Positions 33,109 to 49,519 of a DNA stretch of 64,000 bases are shown here, one piece after another. The notes under the pieces are model-generated. The model saw nothing but the letters and a program-made list of their open reading frames with translations, was not told the origin of the DNA and made no database searches. Source of the DNA: Streptomyces sp. NBC_01198. GTDB taxonomy: Bacteria; Actinomycetota; Actinomycetes; Streptomycetales; Streptomycetaceae. The position numbers and the translations under genes are program-made. How positions within the stretch are numbered: the stretch's first letter is position 1; each line of letters starts with the position of its first letter. The stretch is from positions 7,114,001 to 7,178,000 of the forward strand of contig NZ_CP108568.1 of assembly GCF_036010485.1 (NCBI RefSeq), read 5' to 3'.

Positions 33109-33144
33109 CCCGAGGCCTGTCGTCGGGCCGCCGTCACGGGGGGG

Positions 33145-33630
33145 TCAGGAGCCGAGCTTGCGCAGCACCACTCCGTACAACCGCTCCGCGGCCAGGTAGC
33201 CGGACCGCCGGGAGTCGTACGAGCGCAGCGGGTTGTCGCCCAGCACCACCAGGCGTCCGGCCGGTACCCGGGTGCCGGGTGCCGACCGCAGCGCGGGGAC
33301 CGTGTCGCGCGGAATCGGGTCACCCGGAACGGCCGTGACGCGCTTGATGATCCAGCGGGCGTGCGCCGTCCTGTCCAGGTCCGCCATTCCGGGCGGCAGC
33401 GCCTCCCGCTGTGGCGGCGGGCTGTTCCCCCTGAGCACGACGACCTGTCCCGCGCGCAGCGCGCCGGCCGGCGTCCGCCGGACCAGCACCCGCTCGCCCG
33501 GCCGGTACGCCGGCAGCATGCTCTCGCCGTGCACGGTCACCACCAGATACCGCCGGCGTATCACCACGACGGCCACGACGGCGGCGGCGACGACCGCGAC
33601 GCCGGTGACCATGGTCGCAACGCCGGTCAC
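33145..33630 (-). CDS. S26 family signal peptidase, peptide-locus member
   Basis: A 161-residue type I signal peptidase. A single N-terminal membrane anchor (VAVVAAAVVAVVVI) precedes the catalytic Ser in VHGESMLPAY and the catalytic Lys in RWIIKRVTAVPGD. Box E is LGDNPLRSYDSRRSGYL. GTG 33630 overlaps the stop of the ABC exporter gene (GTGA). Since that exporter has no C39 peptidase domain, this enzyme is a good candidate to remove the leader of the Cys-rich peptide encoded upstream. Confidence 0.9.
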   Translation of the reverse strand: MTGVATMVTGVAVVAAAVVAVVVIRRRYLVVTVHGESMLPAYRPGERVLVRRTPAGALRAGQVVVLRGNSPPPQREALPPGMADLDRTAHARWIIKRVTAVPGDPIPRDTVPALRSAPGTRVPAGRLVVLGDNPLRSYDSRRSGYLAAERLYGVVLRKLGS

Positions 33631-35507
33631 CGCGGTGCTCCCGCCGGGCGCGCCGCGACCGCCACGATGTCGTCGTCGATGTCGTCGTCGCGGTAACCGG
33701 CCGCCTGGCGGGCGAAGAGCCGGGCGTAGACACCACCGTCGGCCAGCAGGGCGGTGTGCCCGCCCTCCTCCGCGACGACACCGTCGGCCAGCACCACGAT
33801 CCGGTCGACGTCGCGGATCGCGCCGAGCCGGTGGGAGATCATCACGCTTGTACGCCCGGACCGCAGCTTCCTCAACTGGCGGTGCACCTCGTACTCGGCC
33901 TCGGGATCCAGGCCGGAGCTGGGCTCGTCGAGGATCATCAGGTCACGGTCGCGGCGCAGGAAGCCGCGGGCGAGCGCCAGCCGCTGCCACTGCCCGCCGG
34001 ACAGCAGCACACCGTCTGCCTCCTCGTCCAGCTCGGACGCGAATCCGCGGCTCAGCAGGGTCCGGTAGCCGTGCGGCAGGGCCGTGACGGTGTCGTGGAT
34101 GTCGGCCTCCCGCGCCGCCCGCGCGATGCGTTCCTCGTCCTCGGCGAGCGCGAGGTCGCCCACCGAGACGTTCTCCGCCGCCGTCAGCTCGTACGCCACG
34201 AAGTCCTGGAAGACCGCGCTGATCCGCGCGCGCAGCGCCTCAGGAGGGATGTCGCGGATGTCCACGCCGTCCCACAGGATCGCTCCGCGGGTCGGGTCGT
34301 AGAACCTGCACAGCAGCTTCGCGAGGGTGCTCTTGCCGGCCCCGTTGCGCCCGACCAGGGCGACCGTCTGACCGTGCGGGACGAACAGGTCGACGCCGCG
34401 CAGGATCCACGGGTGGTCGTCGCTGTAGCGGAACCAGACGTCGCGCAGCTCGATGCCCCGGCGCAGCGGCGGCAGGTCCCGGTCGACGTCGGGCAGCGGA
34501 AGGTCGGGGCCGGCGGTCACGATCGAGACCTCGTGCTGGAAGTTCAGCAGGTGCTCATAGGCCATCACACCGGCCGCCACCACGACGTTCAGCGCCCCCT
34601 GCACCCCGGCGATCGCCGCCACGAACATCGACACGTCGCCGATGCCGAGCCGTCCGTCGCCCGCCGCGAGGATCGCCCAGACGAGTCCGGCTCCGGCGAC
34701 ACCGGCGGAGGCGGCCGCCAGGCCCGACTGGATGAGCAGTTCCTGCCGGTCCACCCGGCGACGGGCGGCGTTGGCGGTGCGCAGCTCGGCGAGCATCCGA
34801 AGGCGCAGGAAGTCGCCGAGCGCGAACAGCCGGATCTCCTTCGCGGCACTCGCGGTGGACATCAACTGCGCGTAGAAGGCCTCGCGGCGCTCGGCCGGAC
34901 CGATCCGCCAGAGCATCGCGGTGCGCCGCCGCGACAGCCGCAGCTCGATGAGCAGGGCCGGCAGCGCCGCCAGCAGGACCAGGACCGTGAAGGCGGGACT
35001 GATCAACGCGAGCGAGCCGACGAAGCCGACGACGGTCACCACGCCGCCGGCCGCCGACACCGTGGTGTCCACCAGCCGGCCCGGGTGGCTCGCGCTCTGC
35101 TGGGCCAGGCGCAGCCGGTCCAGGAAGGGCGGGCTCTCGAAGGCGGCGAGCCCGGTGGAGCGGGAAACCGCCGCGAACAGCTCGTCCTTCGCGGACGTCG
35201 CCGTACGTCGGTCCACCTCGGCCCGCAGGTACTGTGCCGCGTGCGAGGTCGCCGCGACGCCCGTGGTGACCGCGGTGATCGCCAGTGCCAGGCCGAGCAG
35301 AGAGCCCGTCCTGTGCCCGGCGAGCTGGTCGAGCACCGCCTTGGTCAGCCACGCCACCGTGATCGGCGCCGCGGAACCCACCAACGAGACGGCCAGATAC
35401 CCCAGCAGGTGCGCCGGCGCCGACCGCCATACCCGCGACGTGGTGCGTCCCGCGCCGCGCAGCAGTTCCCGCCGCGTCGGCGTGATCCGCGGCCCGTCGT
35501 CGGTCAC
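33627..35507 (-). CDS. ABC exporter of the Cys-rich peptide locus
   Basis: A 626-residue half-transporter. The membrane domain covers residues about 30-330. Walker A is GRNGAGKST, the signature is LLSGGQWQRLALA, and Walker B is LMILDEPSSGLDPEAE. There is no N-terminal cysteine peptidase domain. The last 20 residues are Asp-rich (YRDDDIDDDIV). It overlaps both neighbours by 4 bp, placing it in one operon with the thioredoxin-like and S26 genes. Likely substrate: the 66-residue peptide encoded at the head of the operon. Confidence 0.9.
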   Translation of the reverse strand: MTDDGPRITPTRRELLRGAGRTTSRVWRSAPAHLLGYLAVSLVGSAAPITVAWLTKAVLDQLAGHRTGSLLGLALAITAVTTGVAATSHAAQYLRAEVDRRTATSAKDELFAAVSRSTGLAAFESPPFLDRLRLAQQSASHPGRLVDTTVSAAGGVVTVVGFVGSLALISPAFTVLVLLAALPALLIELRLSRRRTAMLWRIGPAERREAFYAQLMSTASAAKEIRLFALGDFLRLRMLAELRTANAARRRVDRQELLIQSGLAAASAGVAGAGLVWAILAAGDGRLGIGDVSMFVAAIAGVQGALNVVVAAGVMAYEHLLNFQHEVSIVTAGPDLPLPDVDRDLPPLRRGIELRDVWFRYSDDHPWILRGVDLFVPHGQTVALVGRNGAGKSTLAKLLCRFYDPTRGAILWDGVDIRDIPPEALRARISAVFQDFVAYELTAAENVSVGDLALAEDEERIARAAREADIHDTVTALPHGYRTLLSRGFASELDEEADGVLLSGGQWQRLALARGFLRRDRDLMILDEPSSGLDPEAEYEVHRQLRKLRSGRTSVMISHRLGAIRDVDRIVVLADGVVAEEGGHTALLADGGVYARLFARQAAGYRDDDIDDDIVAVAARPAGAPR

Positions 35508-36061
35508 GCCGGCGACCCCACTGGCAGCCGGGAGATCCTGCCCTCCACCGCGAGCAGCCGGCCCTCCCCGGAGACCTGGTAGAAGGTCGGGAACACCTTG
35601 AGGCCGAAGGCCCTGCCCACCGTGGTGAGCTCATCCTCCACGATCACCTGTGCGACCGGCGACAGCGCCGTGACCAGCTCCTCGGGGTCGCCGGAAGTGG
35701 CGTCGAGCACCGCCACGATCTGACGCCGGTCCTGGCCCGCGGCCCAGGAGGCGATCTCCGGGAGCTGGTCGCGACACCCTCCGCAGTCAGCGGACAGGAA
35801 CGCCACCACCGCTCCCTCGGGGAGCAGCTCGCGGGTCACCTGGTCGCCGTCCAGGGTCGTGGCCGCGAAGTCACCGACCAGCTCACCCTTGCCCAACGTT
35901 GCAAGTCCGGTGGGAGGCCCGCCCATCAGGTCGATGGCCTCGTACAGCGCGTCCATCAGTTTTGTGTGTTCCCGGAGTCGGCGGATCACTCCGAGGGTCA
36001 GCACCAAGGTCAGCAGGCAGAGGACACCGAGGAGGGACACGACGGCAATCAACAGAGGCAT
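35504..36061 (-). CDS. membrane-anchored TlpA/MauD-like thiol redox protein
   Basis: A 185-residue protein with one N-terminal membrane helix (residues 3-25) and an extracytoplasmic thioredoxin fold. The active site is CGGC at residues 93-96 (FLSADCGGCRDQL), and the cis-Pro is in KVFPTFYQV. TlpA/MauD proteins oxidise or isomerise disulfides outside the cell. In this operon it most likely acts on the eight-cysteine peptide. ATG 36061 lies downstream of a GC hairpin that separates it from the peptide gene. Confidence 0.9.
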   Translation of the reverse strand: MPLLIAVVSLLGVLCLLTLVLTLGVIRRLREHTKLMDALYEAIDLMGGPPTGLATLGKGELVGDFAATTLDGDQVTRELLPEGAVVAFLSADCGGCRDQLPEIASWAAGQDRRQIVAVLDATSGDPEELVTALSPVAQVIVEDELTTVGRAFGLKVFPTFYQVSGEGRLLAVEGRISRLPVGSPA

Positions 36062-36092
36062 GGCGTACTCCGTGTGAAGGGGAAGGATCGGC

Positions 36093-36125
36093 GGTACCCG
36101 GCGGTCGGGTGGGCCGCCGGGTACC
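36093..36125 (-). terminator. hairpin between peptide gene and its maturation genes
   Basis: GGTACCCGGCGG and CCGCCGGGTACC form a perfect 12-bp stem with a 9-nt loop. It follows the peptide gene and precedes the redox gene on the minus strand. A partial terminator here would let the peptide be made in excess over its enzymes. Confidence 0.65.
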
Positions 36126-36180
36126 TGTCACCGCGAGGACCGGGCGTGGCCGCCGTACGGGCCCTCGCCGGCGAGCGGGG

Positions 36181-36381
36181 TCAGGCGGTGCAGAGCGACA
36201 GCCTTTGGCAAGCACCGCAGTGGGTCGTGCCGTTCGGGTAGTAGCAGCAGTAGGCACCGGCGGGCTTCGGGCCACAGCCGGCACTGGCTCCGCACTGGTA
36301 GTCGCAGTCGGCGGCCCGCGCCACGGTGTGCGGCGCGACCATCTCGAGCAGCCGGTCGGCCATCCTGTTCATGAGGCGCAT
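36181..36381 (-). CDS. Cys-rich secreted peptide precursor, 66 aa (fulvocin C-like bacteriocin candidate)
   Basis: ATG 36381 follows GAAGGGAA. The first 24 residues are a leader (MRLMNRMADRLLEMVAPHTV then ARAA), ending in an Ala-Arg-Ala-Ala stretch that suits signal peptidase. The remaining 42 residues contain eight cysteines, at 26, 30, 36, 45, 46, 55, 58 and 64, enough for four disulfides, plus several Gly and Tyr. Size and cysteine count resemble fulvocin C, a disulfide-rich myxobacterial bacteriocin; that comparison is from memory and needs a search. The peptide heads an operon with a redox protein, ABC exporter and peptidase. Confidence 0.8.
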   Translation of the reverse strand: MRLMNRMADRLLEMVAPHTVARAADCDYQCGASAGCGPKPAGAYCCYYPNGTTHCGACQRLSLCTA

Positions 36382-36495
36382 GAAATTTCCCTTCGGTCGC
36401 GGGGCCAGGCGGGTTCCCGCCCCGTTCGGCGCTGGTGCGTCGCTCACGCGGTCGCCCCACCGTTCGGGGCAGCCTGAGCCAGGGCTGTGATCGGT

Positions 36496-36514
36496 TTCTC
36501 AACGACTTCTCAAC
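36496..36514 (-). promoter_or_regulatory. 11-bp-spaced direct repeats, likely SARP binding site
   Basis: On the minus strand GTTGAGAA occurs twice (36514-36507 and 36503-36496) with an 11-bp period. SARP regulators bind direct heptamer repeats spaced one helical turn apart near promoters. The site lies 115 bp upstream of the peptide start and just downstream of the SARP gene's end. Confidence 0.55.
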
Positions 36515-36542
36515 GGCCCGGCGTTCATGGCGGTCCCAGTGC

Positions 36543-39266
36543 TCAGGACGCCCGAAGTGCGGCGATACGGTCGCGGAGCCTGTCGGCCTTGGCATCGCCG
36601 ACGGCCTCGTAGAACGTCGCGGCCCGCGTCCACGCCTCCAGCGCGGCAGTGGTGTCGCCGGCCCGCAGGTGCGTCTGGCCCAGGCGGACCAGCGTCTCCG
36701 CGGCCGGGTGCGGGTCGTCGCAGCCGCGGAAGAGTTCCGCGGCCCGCTCGAAGCCCGCCACCGCCCCCGGGACGTCGCCCTTGACGTCCAGGATGTAGGC
36801 GATGCTGTCCCACGCGTGGCCCTCGCCCTCGGGGCACTTCAGGTCGGCCAGGACCTGCTGTGCCCGGCGGCAGTCCGCCAGGGCCGCGTCGTGCTCGCCG
36901 CCCTGGGCCCGCAGCCACCCCGCGTTGTTCAGGGCCCGCGCCGCCGCGACGCTGTCGCCCGCCTGCTCGAACAGCTCCCGCGCGCGCAGTGTCGGGTCCA
37001 GCGCCCTCTCGGGCCCCTGCCGGCTCAGCGGAGTGGCGAGGCCCAGCAGGACGTACGCCTGCAGGACCGGTTCGTCGAGGTCCTTGTAGAGCGCGATCGC
37101 CTGCTCGAAGTGGTCGACCGCCTCCAGGTCGCGGCCGAGTTTGGCCTGGGCGCGGGCGATGCCGTTGTGGCAGTGGGCCGCGCCCAGGTGGTCGTCGAGC
37201 CGCTCCGCGGCCTGCAGTGCCACCGCGTGCACCCGCAGGGTCTCCTCCCACAGCCCGCGCCGCTGCATGAACTCCGCGAAGGACCACGCCAGCATCCACG
37301 CGTGCCGGTCCAGCCCTTCCACGGTCGCCGCCCCCAGCAGCGCGGGCAGCGCCACCGACTCGTCGGCGTACCACCGCAGGGCCGTCGCCTGATCGGCGAA
37401 CCGCTCCACCACGGCGCCCGGTTCCGGCTGTTCCAGCGCCGGCCTGTCGCGGTGCGGGTAGCACACGGCGTGCGCTGCCCACGCCGAGTGCAGGTAGTGG
37501 TCGAGCAGCCGGCGGTTCGCGGCGTGCCGTATCGCCAGGCTGTCGGCGCTCTGGCCCTTCTCCAGCGCGTAGACCCGCAGCAGCGCGTGCAGGTACAGCC
37601 TGCCCGGCGGGCGGATCTCGACCAGGTTGGCGCCGCGGAGGTTCGAGGTGAGCTCCCGGGTGTGCTCCACCGGATGCCCGGCCAGGCTCGCCGCGGCCGG
37701 CAGCGACAGATGCGGTCCTGGGTGCTGCCCGAGCCGGCGGAACAGCCGGGCAGCGGGGGACGAGAGCTCCCGGTAGGAGCGCCAGAACACCCGGCGCAGG
37801 TCGATGGCGGGGTCGCTGTGGGCGAACGGCTCCAGGTCGGAGTCGGTCTGCTCCAGGTCCGCCGCTACCTCGGCCAGCGGCAGTTCCGGGCGCTGTGACA
37901 GCTGCGCCGCGACGATCGCCAGTGCCAGCGGGAGCCGGCCGCACCGCCCGATGATCCGCTCGGCCGCCTCCGGCTCCGCCGCCAGCCGCTGCTCGCCGAG
38001 CCACGCCGCCAGCAGGTGGTGGGCGTCCTGACTGGGCATGATGTCCAGCCGCAGCAGATGCGCCCCCTCGGTGACCGCCAGGCCGGTCAGCTCGCAACGG
38101 CTGGTGACCAGCGTCAGGCAGCCGGCTCCGGCGGCCACCAGCGGACGGACCTGGGTGGCGCCATGGGCGTTGTCCAGGACGACCAGGACCCGGCGTTCTG
38201 CCAGCATGCTGCGGTAGAGCCCGATCTGCGCCTCGAAGCCGGACGGCACCTGGGCCTCGGGGACCCCGAGCGCGCCGAGGAAGCGGGGCAGCACCACGGC
38301 CGGGTCGTCCGGGTCCACCGTGCTGAGGTCGGCGTACAGCTGTCCCCCGGGGAAGCGGTCGCGCTGCAGGTGCGCCCAGCGCAGCGCGACCGAGGACTTG
38401 CCGACCCCCGGCGGCCCGGAGATCGCGCAGACCGCGGCCGTCGTCGGATGATCCTCGGCCCCGATCGCCGCCAGTTGTGCCAGCTCCACCGTCCGCCCGA
38501 CGAAATGCCGCAGGCCTACGGGGAGTTGCAGGGGCACCAGATGCGCAGTCTCGGTGGTGCTGTCCGACCGCAGCAGCATCCGGTGGACCTGCCGCAGCGA
38601 CGTTCCCGGCTCGACACCCAGCTCGCCGGCCAGCGTCCGCCGCACCCGGGCGAAGTGGGACAGCGCCTCGGCTGTCCGTCCGCCGGCGTGCAACGCCTCG
38701 ATCAGGGCGACCGCCAGCGGCTCGTCGAGCGGGTACTCCTCGGCCAGCGGCGCCAGCGCCGCGGCCGCGGCCGCAGGGTCGCTGCCGGTCACCGTCCGCG
38801 CCCAGCGCAGCTGGGTCTCCTTGCGCTCGTCGCGCATACGCTGGCGCGCCCGCTCCGCCCATTCACCCGGCAGCCCTGTCAGCGGATCGCCGCGCCACAG
38901 GGCGAGGGCCTCGCCCAGTTGCGGCGCCGGATCCGCCTCCGCCGCCTGCTTGACCAGGCAGCGGAAACGCAGCACGTCCACCGCGGACTCGTCGACGTCG
39001 AGCAGATAACCCCCGACCCGGAGGACGACGTCGCCGTCACCGGCCAGCACCTCGTGCCGGACACGGGTGAGGACGGTATGCAGAGTCCGCCGGGCACCGG
39101 CTGGGGCGAGCTCGCCCCAGACGCGGGCGAGCAGCGACTCGACCGGCACGACTCTGCCCGCCTCCCACGCCAGCGCGGCGAGCACGAGCGCGACCTGCGG
39201 AGGCCGGACGGGCCGGGACTGGCCGGAACGGTCCACCTCCACGGGCCCGAGCAACCGGATCAGCAC
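36543..39266 (-). CDS. AfsR/SARP-family regulator (wHTH-BTAD, NB-ARC, TPR)
   Basis: A 907-residue regulator. Residues 1-95 form an OmpR-type winged helix (PPQVALVLAALAWEAG, LHTVLTRVRHEV), residues 100-245 the BTAD domain (ALWRGDPLTGLPGEWAE, LAGELGVEPGTSLRQ). An NB-ARC ATPase follows with Walker A SGPPGVGKSSVALRW and RVLVVLDNAH for Walker B. The last 250 residues are TPR repeats. GTG 39266 follows GGGGGTGGA. It sits between the peptide operon and the MauE gene and is the obvious pathway activator. Confidence 0.93.
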   Translation of the reverse strand: MLIRLLGPVEVDRSGQSRPVRPPQVALVLAALAWEAGRVVPVESLLARVWGELAPAGARRTLHTVLTRVRHEVLAGDGDVVLRVGGYLLDVDESAVDVLRFRCLVKQAAEADPAPQLGEALALWRGDPLTGLPGEWAERARQRMRDERKETQLRWARTVTGSDPAAAAAALAPLAEEYPLDEPLAVALIEALHAGGRTAEALSHFARVRRTLAGELGVEPGTSLRQVHRMLLRSDSTTETAHLVPLQLPVGLRHFVGRTVELAQLAAIGAEDHPTTAAVCAISGPPGVGKSSVALRWAHLQRDRFPGGQLYADLSTVDPDDPAVVLPRFLGALGVPEAQVPSGFEAQIGLYRSMLAERRVLVVLDNAHGATQVRPLVAAGAGCLTLVTSRCELTGLAVTEGAHLLRLDIMPSQDAHHLLAAWLGEQRLAAEPEAAERIIGRCGRLPLALAIVAAQLSQRPELPLAEVAADLEQTDSDLEPFAHSDPAIDLRRVFWRSYRELSSPAARLFRRLGQHPGPHLSLPAAASLAGHPVEHTRELTSNLRGANLVEIRPPGRLYLHALLRVYALEKGQSADSLAIRHAANRRLLDHYLHSAWAAHAVCYPHRDRPALEQPEPGAVVERFADQATALRWYADESVALPALLGAATVEGLDRHAWMLAWSFAEFMQRRGLWEETLRVHAVALQAAERLDDHLGAAHCHNGIARAQAKLGRDLEAVDHFEQAIALYKDLDEPVLQAYVLLGLATPLSRQGPERALDPTLRARELFEQAGDSVAAARALNNAGWLRAQGGEHDAALADCRRAQQVLADLKCPEGEGHAWDSIAYILDVKGDVPGAVAGFERAAELFRGCDDPHPAAETLVRLGQTHLRAGDTTAALEAWTRAATFYEAVGDAKADRLRDRIAALRAS

Positions 39267-39416
39267 GATGGTCCACCCCCCTTGACTGGATCATCGAGAC
39301 TAGCGAGAGCGCGGCCCAAGTGATACGGCAGCCATAATATTGGGTTTTGAACCGAAGTGGGGGCCGCATACCGGTTTCGGGCCTGTGACCTGTGCGGTTC
39401 GCCTTCCGGTGAACCC

Positions 39417-39446
39417 TTGTCAGACCGCCGCGGCGCTGGCTAAGTT
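39417..39446 (+). promoter_or_regulatory. promoter of the MauE-like gene
   Basis: TTGTCA (39417-39422) and TAAGTT (39441-39446) are separated by 18 bp. The GTG start lies only 6 bp after the -10 box, so the transcript is probably leaderless. Confidence 0.55.
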
Positions 39447-39452
39447 CGATCC

Positions 39453-39974
39453 GTGCAGTACGTCGAGATTGCCGGCAGGCTGCTGCTGCTCACGGTCTTC
39501 GGCCTCGCTCTGGCCGGGAAGATCTCAAGCCGCAGCGGGTGGAACGAGTTCGTCGAGTCGATCAGGGCGATGGCGGTGATCGACCGCGCCAGGGCGCCGA
39601 TGGCCGCGGTGGCGACCGTGGCCGCTGAGGCCGGTGTCGTCGTGCTCGCCGTGATCCCCGTCCGCCGCGCCGGGTCGGCGGCCTTCGTCCTCGCGGCCGG
39701 GCTGCTCGGCTGCCTCACCGTGGCCGTCGCCAAGGTCGTCCGCAGGGGCGCCGCCGTCCCGTGCCGCTGCTTCGGCGCCTCGCAGACCCCGCTGGGCCTC
39801 CCGCATGTGGTCCGCAACCTCATCCTGGTGGCCACCGCCCTGCTAGGGCTTGCCGGATCCCTGGTGAACGGGCACTTCGACCTGGCCTTCTGCGCTGTGG
39901 TCGCCGTCTTCGGCGCCGGCCTCGGGCTGGTGATGGCCCGTTGGGACGACCTCGTCTTCCTGCTGCGGGTCTGA
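39453..39974 (+). CDS. MauE/DoxX-family redox-associated membrane protein
   Basis: A 173-residue protein with four hydrophobic segments. The MauE hallmark PCRCFGAS is present, with the cysteine pair at residues 104 and 106. MauE-type proteins pass electrons across the membrane to MauD/TlpA-like proteins and are needed for disulfide formation in methylamine dehydrogenase. Here the partner would be the TlpA-like protein of the peptide operon. Divergent from the SARP gene. Confidence 0.9.
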   Translation: MQYVEIAGRLLLLTVFGLALAGKISSRSGWNEFVESIRAMAVIDRARAPMAAVATVAAEAGVVVLAVIPVRRAGSAAFVLAAGLLGCLTVAVAKVVRRGAAVPCRCFGASQTPLGLPHVVRNLILVATALLGLAGSLVNGHFDLAFCAVVAVFGAGLGLVMARWDDLVFLLRV

Positions 39975-40640
39975 CGCCGTCCTCGCCGTCGGCATACGGG
40001 CCACCGGGCCGCGATGGTGACCGGCCGTCGGGTCGTACTCCGCGGCTCCCGGCGGCGGAGTGCCCGACTCCCAGGCCAGGCCGTAGCGCTGGAAGAGCTC
40101 GGCACGCAACCGGTGCACCGGCATCGACGCCCCCGGCAGCAGCATGGCCACCGACGCGCCCATCAGCAGCGCCCGCAGCAGCCGGTACTCCTCCTCGGGG
40201 TCGGCCGCGCCCCAGCGGACCATCGTCTCGCGCAGCAGGCAGGCGAGCCGCTGCTGCTCGGGGCACTGGAGGAAACCCTCCTCCTGCAGAATCGAGGCCA
40301 TGTGCGTACGCATCAGCGTGGTGTGCCCGGTACTGACGCCGAGCATCGCGTCGATGGCCCTGGCCAGCAGCTCCTGACCGTCGTCGGTACGCGGTTCGCG
40401 CTCCAGCCCGGCGGCCAGCTCACCGGCCATCAGCCGGTGCACGGCGGACTGCAGCAGCGCCCGCTTGCCGGAGAAGTAGTACGACACCAGGCCCCTGGCC
40501 GACCCGGCGCGCCGGGTGATGTCGGCCAGCGTGGTGGCCTCGTAACCGCGCTCCTCGATCAGTTCGACGGTGGCTTGCAGCAGCCGTTCCCGGGAACGCC
40601 TGCGCATCGCTTCATTGACCGAAGCGCTCCGAGGGGACAT
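39843..40640 (-). CDS. TetR-family transcriptional regulator with extended C-terminus
   Basis: A 265-residue protein. The helix-turn-helix is in residues 15-62 (YEATTLADITRRAGSARGLVSYYF). The ligand domain runs to about residue 215. The last 50 residues (DPQQEDEVVPTGHHQPEAG) are low-complexity and are read antisense to the 3' end of the MauE gene, a 132-bp overlap. I suspect loss of an earlier stop codon. The target is unknown; no divergent gene is adjacent. Confidence 0.88.
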   Translation of the reverse strand: MSPRSASVNEAMRRRSRERLLQATVELIEERGYEATTLADITRRAGSARGLVSYYFSGKRALLQSAVHRLMAGELAAGLEREPRTDDGQELLARAIDAMLGVSTGHTTLMRTHMASILQEEGFLQCPEQQRLACLLRETMVRWGAADPEEEYRLLRALLMGASVAMLLPGASMPVHRLRAELFQRYGLAWESGTPPPGAAEYDPTAGHHRGPVARMPTARTASDPQQEDEVVPTGHHQPEAGAEDGDHSAEGQVEVPVHQGSGKP

Positions 40641-49424: not shown

Positions 49425-49519
49425 GCCCCTGTAGCTCAGTCAGGAAGAGCACGCCACAAAGATCGTGCCTTGTAATGCCGCGATCTGGCGCGACTCCGGT
49501 TCGAGTCCGGACGGGGGTA
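49425..49519 (+). tRNA. tRNA-like element with a 29-nt anticodon loop
   Basis: The cloverleaf is complete apart from one arm. The acceptor stem GCCCCTG pairs with CGGGGGT (two G-U type pairs), positions 8-9 are TA, the D-arm is GCTC...GAGC, and the T-arm TCCGG-TTCGAGT-CCGGA is perfect. The anticodon stem CGCCA/TGGCG has 5 bp, but the loop is 29 nt instead of 7. Inside it GATCGTGCC and GCCGCGATC form a 9-bp hairpin with one C-C mismatch and the loop TTGTAAT, which resembles a CTTGTAA (Thr-TGT) or TTGTAAT (GTA) anticodon loop. The 3' end reads ACTA, not CCA. Confidence 0.6.

Follow-up and report, generated by a model that had tools for sequence, protein, structure and literature searches.

A group of six genes in Streptomyces sp. 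NBC_01198, found in a stretch of 64,000 nucleotides (contig NZ_CP108568.1, positions 7,114,001 to 7,178,000; hereafter, the window), probably makes a secreted peptide in which all cysteines are joined in disulfide bonds. The genes encode a short precursor peptide, a thioredoxin-like protein of the TlpA type, an ABC exporter, a signal-peptidase-like protease of the S26 family, a membrane redox protein of the MauE type and a SARP-type activator. Judged from their sequences, the SARP protein would activate the operon, the ABC protein would export the peptide, the S26 peptidase would cut it and the TlpA and MauE proteins would oxidise it, and its role would most likely be antimicrobial. The analysis goes beyond the first-pass annotation of this DNA in placing the peptide within a large, mostly undescribed and hypervariable family. 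On balance, and with somewhat less confidence, we favour the view that this is an unnamed actinobacterial superfamily of disulfide peptides: a single conserved leader and a single cassette for export, cleavage and oxidation would handle cores that differ almost without limit in sequence and have two to five disulfides. Such a superfamily would be diversified in the style of conotoxins, largely unannotated and often present at several loci per genome.

Distribution of the peptide and its partners

A profile of nine TlpA sequences, run at an E-value of 1e-12 against 394 genomes of the same class, finds 60 places in 30 genomes, which correspond to 58 loci (in G018 and in G363, two places share one locus, counted once each). 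A profile of 13 peptide sequences finds 45 places in 20 of these 394 genomes, all 20 being among the 30 with a TlpA match; an earlier profile of four peptide sequences had reached just 6. Of the 45 peptide places, 44 lie at most 5 kb from a TlpA place; the other is a weak match. Conversely, a leader-bearing peptide is present at 50 of the 58 TlpA-selected loci (44 of 52 when the six loci that seeded the profiles are left out), and a variant leader followed by eight cysteines is present at four further loci of one genus (L131–L134), which brings the total to 54 of 58. The loci read number 61, i.e., these 58 and those of three named relatives; 47 of them have the peptide together with all four partners (TlpA, ABC, S26 and MauE), and two have all four partners without it. 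The peptide frame thus recurs across relatives and families, and the partner set does not consistently occur without a Cys-rich peptide, these being the two points on which the first-pass annotation had staked its proposal of dedicated redox, export and processing genes beside a conserved, leader-bearing, Cys-rich peptide.

By regular expression, CxxC is present in 60 of 61 TlpA proteins, CxCFG in 54 of 57 MauE proteins, the Ser/Lys motif in 52 of 53 S26 proteins, and Walker A together with LSGGQ in 54 of 60 ABC proteins. At L131–L134 (genomes G113, G059, G217 and G134), where the peptide leader is different (SVFAP) and no S26 match lies in the stretch read, a single open reading frame (ORF) of about 300–380 codons contains both the MauE and the TlpA match, which suggests joint action of the pair. 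Of the 30 positive genomes, 16 have at least two TlpA loci. The window's own genome has three; the other two, L117 (near position 1163990) and L124 (near 2306741, with no MauE or S26 match), have cores with six and four cysteines, respectively. In a sample of 149 genomes from the phylum, three have a TlpA match, one of which is weak, partial and outside the class.

The closest relatives were found by a scan of named genomes: their peptides match that of the window at 78% (Actinacidiphila cocklensis), 67% (Nonomuraea rhodomycinica) and 56% (Micromonospora sp. CB01531). In all three, the peptide, TlpA, ABC and S26 genes follow each other in the same order and on the same strand, with a SARP gene adjoining the peptide gene (in opposite orientation in Micromonospora). 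MauE lies beside two of the three loci, and none was found at the Nonomuraea locus. The end of the leader, PHT(V/A)ARA, and the core motif CCYYPNG are identical in the window and all three relatives; the length of the middle of the core varies. The A. cocklensis peptide is found unchanged in G398, a genome of the window's own genus, which suggests that this genus is Actinacidiphila.

A held-out plasmid collection, queried with the TlpA sequence of the window at an E-value of 1e-5, gives 25 records, 16 of them from S. clavuligerus and three from S. atratus; one record per species was read (8 of the 25). Peptide, ABC and S26 are present in all eight species, and MauE in seven. The leaders of ten of the 12 held-out peptides score 20.1–44.0, and two Embleya peptides, which do not have the leader proline, score 16.4; none of the 12 cores is identical to any of the 61 cores of the family. 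On the S. clavuligerus plasmid pSCL4, two genes annotated as “hypothetical protein” precede those for MauE, TlpA, ABC and S26. Searches of the plasmid collection with peptide queries gave one match, in Rhizobium (E 0.7), and then none.

Leader and core

The family leader has the motif DRLL..VP...AxA. In an alignment of 62 members, built without the regular expression used for the cores, proline at position 17 is present in 62 of 62, the residue at −3 is alanine (58) or valine (4), and alanine is at −1 in 61; the leader therefore ends in A-x-A and not in GG or GA. Inspected by eye for the hydrophobic stretch that marks the signal peptides of Sec-secreted small proteins, it is short and has Asp-Arg at its centre (D in 55 and R in 54 of 62). 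Alanine or valine at −3 together with alanine at −1 is the classical signal-peptidase rule, and since the leader follows this pattern and an S26 protein with a Ser/Lys motif is encoded adjacently, cleavage by the S26 peptidase after A-x-A is proposed. Family members were picked by leader score, and the regular expression for the cores required alanine or valine at −3 and, for the most part, alanine at −1. With the leader profile, scores are at least 20.9 for the 62 family ORFs, 10.0–12.5 for the variants and at most 8.3 for all other ORFs. When the 62 family peptides were compared with Pfam and NCBIfam, no family matched consistently. Cysteine makes up 17% of core residues, and the cores of L103 and L107 have a long Gly/Pro/Tyr-rich stretch near their end, which is not present in the other listed cores.

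Cysteine parity

Among 61 distinct cores, two have four cysteines, 34 have six, 23 have eight and two have ten, so that four or six is the usual number (36 of 61) and odd counts are absent. Clustering at 50% identity leaves 31 clusters, of which 31 are even. For comparison, 2022 further short ORFs at these loci have 4–10 cysteines, and the number is even in 1278 of them and odd in 744 (37%), which puts the chance of 31 even clusters at about 0.63^31, i.e., less than one in a million, for clusters that are not fully independent. Each of nine other residues tested is odd in 23–35 of the 61 cores. Counts are also even in all 12 held-out cores and in the four variant-leader peptides. These even counts fit disulfide pairing, an idea of the first-pass annotation that they now support, and it is from this parity that oxidation by TlpA and MauE, rather than reduction, is proposed. 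In an ABC tree of 59 loci, 21 changes of Cys class are required by parsimony, with rows without a scored peptide treated as one class; repeated changes of this kind would be expected from pairwise gain and loss of disulfides.

Limits and layout of the module

All 35 congeners have the flanking TetR gene; the window peptide is present in three. The TetR locus was read in 30 of the 35, 27 of these being from genomes without the window peptide: a complete UDG gene lies at most 1.5 kb from TetR in ten of the 27, a partial one in three and none in 14, and UDG is within this distance in none of the three module-bearing genomes. In three peptide-less genomes (G423, G420 and G404), UDG and TetR stand end to end in the orientation of the window, separated by a short gap at most; the sequence of the window diverges from theirs right after the UDG stop (33108) and rejoins it around the MauE stop (39974). 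Because UDG and TetR are contiguous in these three congeners, the six genes were gained or lost together and make up a single module. The limits first given for the locus, 33145–39974, closely match those derived from the congeners. The TetR gene (39843–40640) overlaps the 3′ end of the MauE gene and lies outside the module.

Table 1. Features of the module, with positions counted from the first nucleotide of the window
Feature	Position	Strand	Remarks
Whole module	33109..39974	both	missing from three related genomes, where UDG and TetR lie end to end
S26 signal-peptidase-like protease	33145..33630	minus	proposed leader peptidase; Pfam
ABC exporter, no C39 peptidase domain	33627..35507	minus	sub-threshold Pfam membrane domain; full-length MsbA-type NCBIfam matches
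TlpA/thioredoxin-like protein, CGGC	35504..36061	minus	membrane-anchored; anchor judged by eye
12-bp perfect inverted repeat	36093..36125	minus	between peptide and tlpA genes; stem kept in five loci
Precursor peptide gene	36181..36381	minus	including stop (66 codons, 36184-36381); leader and 8-Cys core
Core with 8 Cys	36184-36312	minus	43 residues after A-R-A
Leader MRLMNRMADRLLEMVAPHTVARA	36313-36381	minus	N-terminal part of the 66-residue precursor
Direct repeat CGTTGAGAA-gt-CGTTGAGAA	36496..36515	minus	11-bp spacing; between SARP stop and peptide start; proposed SARP operator
SARP-type activator, AfsR-like	36543..39266	minus	BTAD, NB-ARC and TPR domains; Pfam/NCBIfam
MauE-type membrane redox protein, CRCFG (PCRCFG)	39453..39974	plus	Pfam PF07291

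The 66-residue peptide with its eight cysteines, the gene order, the overlaps and the motifs are all where they had first been described. All eight cysteines do lie in the tail that follows the leader, but a cut after A-R-A leaves 43 residues and not 42. Similarly, the peptide gene, which had been placed at the head of the operon, leads a four-gene operon, but it is itself preceded by the SARP gene, and the MauE gene is divergent from the latter. Overlaps of four bases join tlpA to the ABC gene and the ABC gene to that for S26, and the peptide begins with ATG at 36381, with gaaggga upstream. Pfam scores for the window proteins are 65.3 bits for S26, 74.2 for MauE, 80.1 for BTAD and 102 for ABC_tran; two matches are below threshold, namely AhpC-TSA for the TlpA-like protein (21.3, cut-off 26) and ABC_membrane (20.2, cut-off 28). 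There is no C39 domain among the Pfam matches of the ABC protein, as the first reading had held. The peptide, taken as an ORF of 88 residues, matches no Pfam or NCBIfam family; in its 66-residue form it has a single weak Pfam match (DUF6587, E 0.063).

Promoter repeat and intergenic stem

SARP sites, according to a passage of PMC10936776, are direct repeats with a spacing of 11 or 22 bp, and the promoter region of the peptide gene has direct repeats 11 bp apart. A search of the 7.9-Mb genome for TTGAGAANNCNTTGAGAA with at most one mismatch finds a single site, at the peptide promoter. The repeat is retained in L009, L168, L010 and L120, the last of which has a similar SARP protein (1213 bits); in L011, where the SARP protein is more distant, just one copy is clear. 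Over all loci, 11-bp spacing is in modest excess, in 10 of 31 loci with SARP and 7 of 32 without. As the excess is alike in both groups, the case for an operator is built on the repeats of the window, L009, L168, L010 and L120. The direct repeat is the predicted SARP operator of the peptide operon, to which the SARP protein would bind. The stem between the peptide and tlpA genes has about 12 pairs in five loci, with one A-U pair replaced by G-C through changes on both sides, and the fold of this stretch beats shuffled versions in two of four sequences. It may hold the level of the peptide mRNA above that of the partner mRNA.

Proposed mechanism and its alternatives

In the proposed mechanism, the SARP activator would bind the 11-bp direct repeat and turn on the peptide-tlpA-ABC-S26 operon; the ABC protein would recognise the short leader and export the reduced precursor, which the S26 peptidase, working outside the membrane, would cut after A-x-A. 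Disulfides would then be formed by the anchored TlpA-like protein, and MauE would re-oxidise TlpA and pass the electrons on. At the window locus, the product would have 43 residues and four disulfides, and other loci, with a similar leader and machinery, would make peptides with quite different cores and two to five disulfides. Gene order, conservation, the shared leader, cysteine parity, the limits of the module and the existence of the repeat are observed; export, the cleavage site, SARP binding, the direction of electron flow, the pairing of the cysteines and the target are inferred. The most likely role of the peptide would be antagonism toward other microbes: the patchy distribution, the occurrence on plasmids and the variable cores fit use as a weapon.

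Several observations weigh against this reading. At L113 there is a weak candidate peptide only (6.0 bits, within noise), and at the TlpA-selected loci L102, L111 and L135 no peptide is recognisable; the partner set of L135 is near that of L022 by the ABC tree, its weak TlpA match has no CxxC, and its precursor has perhaps been lost or moved. MauE was not found in four of the 61 loci, S26 in eight and ABC in one, some of these being near contig ends, and SARP is within the stretch read at 29. Clustering at 40% identity leaves six linked clusters, which limits the independence of the parity count. AlphaFold2 gives weak models, with a predicted local distance difference test score (pLDDT) of 54.7 from seven sequences and of 69.8 from 62 (the latter in one of five models), and no significant PDB fold was found for the predicted peptide model; its top Foldseek row, laterosporulin, is non-significant (E 1.5, probability 0.13), and the best PDB sequence match for the peptide has an E-value of 0.14. 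Among the genes of 60 codons or more called near the loci, no family suggests itself for immunity, which is unusual for a bacteriocin. Finally, of 14 pairs compared, two have a core whose ratio of nonsynonymous to synonymous divergence (dN/dS) is above 1; for 11 pairs the ratio is below 1, and for one it is undefined. Between the window and A. cocklensis it is 1.55 for the core (24 versus 5 changes) and 0.22–0.28 for the five partners. General positive selection on the core, which this last pair had suggested, is rejected, as 11 of the 14 pairs are below 1; the peptide frame is mostly under protein-level constraint. Changes in the core exceed those in ABC (Fisher test on pooled counts, p 1e-13) over 14 core and 13 ABC pairs, which share genes and are non-independent.

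As no immunity gene family stood out, a secreted signal, a developmental factor or an inhibitor of a secreted enzyme, made by the same route and not used for killing, has to be considered; a promoter repeat of the SARP type fits secondary metabolism generally and not killing specifically. We regard this as unlikely, though as the strongest of the alternatives, because the great variability of the cores, the three distinct loci of the window's genome, presence in three of 35 congeners and occurrence on plasmids fit antagonism better than a conserved signal. It is improbable that the product is a secreted thiol that binds metal, with its cysteines kept reduced by TlpA and MauE. TlpA-like proteins include both reductases and oxidants and the cores are rich in cysteine, but even parity in 61 cores and 31 clusters, against 37% odd counts in other ORFs, is unexpected for metal ligands.

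A leader followed by a core is also the layout of the ribosomally synthesised and post-translationally modified peptides (RiPPs), and the cysteines could be joined by thioether or similar chemistry, as in the more familiar types. The families at more than nine of the 61 loci within about 6.5 kb of tlpA are ABC, MauE, TlpA, SARP and S26, followed by a second SARP-like group at nine loci and other families at seven or fewer; the absence of a modification enzyme of the lanthipeptide or sactipeptide type among these recurrent neighbours makes thioether chemistry slightly less probable still than metal binding. That the peptide is a chance ORF beside an unrelated redox and export operon, as its shortness and want of a Pfam or NCBIfam family might suggest, is hardly credible given its conservation across families, its linkage to TlpA, its presence at held-out plasmid loci, the promoter repeat and the limits of the module.

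If the preferred reading of a secreted disulfide peptide is true, the leader motif and the partner genes define a family of such peptides that is unnamed in Pfam and NCBIfam, includes the two “hypothetical protein” genes of pSCL4, and provides a search handle for many peptides. It would also offer a natural means of oxidising very dissimilar disulfide-rich peptides on the outside of a Gram-positive cell, a setting in which little is known of what MauE/TlpA pairs do.

Elsewhere in the window

Between 46000 and 64000, the G+C content of the window drops from about 0.73 to 0.65, and there are matches to phage families (a DnaB-like helicase, a primase, two exonucleases, a repressor and an endolysin) and a tRNA-Ser at 49425; this region is probably a prophage that runs off the end of the window. 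Between 18000 and 20000, there is strong GC skew (+0.27) and no large tandem array.

Comparison with known systems

Fulvocin C has eight cysteines, and the first-pass annotation had suggested that the window peptide might be related to it. This kinship finds no support in the Pfam and NCBIfam comparisons of the 62 peptides, in which no fulvocin C sequence was compared, and it has been dropped. Laterosporulin, a defensin-like bacteriocin, is likewise small and disulfide-rich; it is leaderless according to its PDB title, whereas the window peptide has a leader. In sublancin and other glycocins, dedicated thiol-disulfide oxidoreductases are encoded beside an ABC exporter. The module differs from these in having no glycosyltransferase, no C39 domain, and an A-x-A leader with an S26 peptidase; its exporter without C39 and the end of its leader also set it apart from double-glycine/C39 bacteriocins.

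Among the open-access titles listed, the one forerunner of this kind of system is decRiPPter (PMC7794033). Of its 42 candidate RiPP families, from Streptomyces, three include mauE, and one of these three has mauD as well. Their precursors have at least eight cysteines, and its authors suggest that mauE and mauD act on the precursor. They resemble the present module in that MauE, in one case together with MauD, is encoded next to a predicted Cys-rich precursor, and the window has a MauE gene of family PF07291 beside an 8-Cys precursor; most cores of the present family, with four or six cysteines, are below that number. The decRiPPter families are computer predictions, for which the text consulted describes no shared leader, Cys parity, operator or module limits; the terms “signal peptidase”, “S26” and “SARP” did not turn up when the main text was searched for them. 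The maturation of methylamine dehydrogenase by mauE and mauD, which have a role in the disulfides of its small subunit (as cited in PMC7794033), has in common with the module the MauE family PF07291 and a thioredoxin-like partner. The difference is one of substrate: among the genes of the module there is none for methylamine dehydrogenase, and the substrate here would be a short peptide that is exported.

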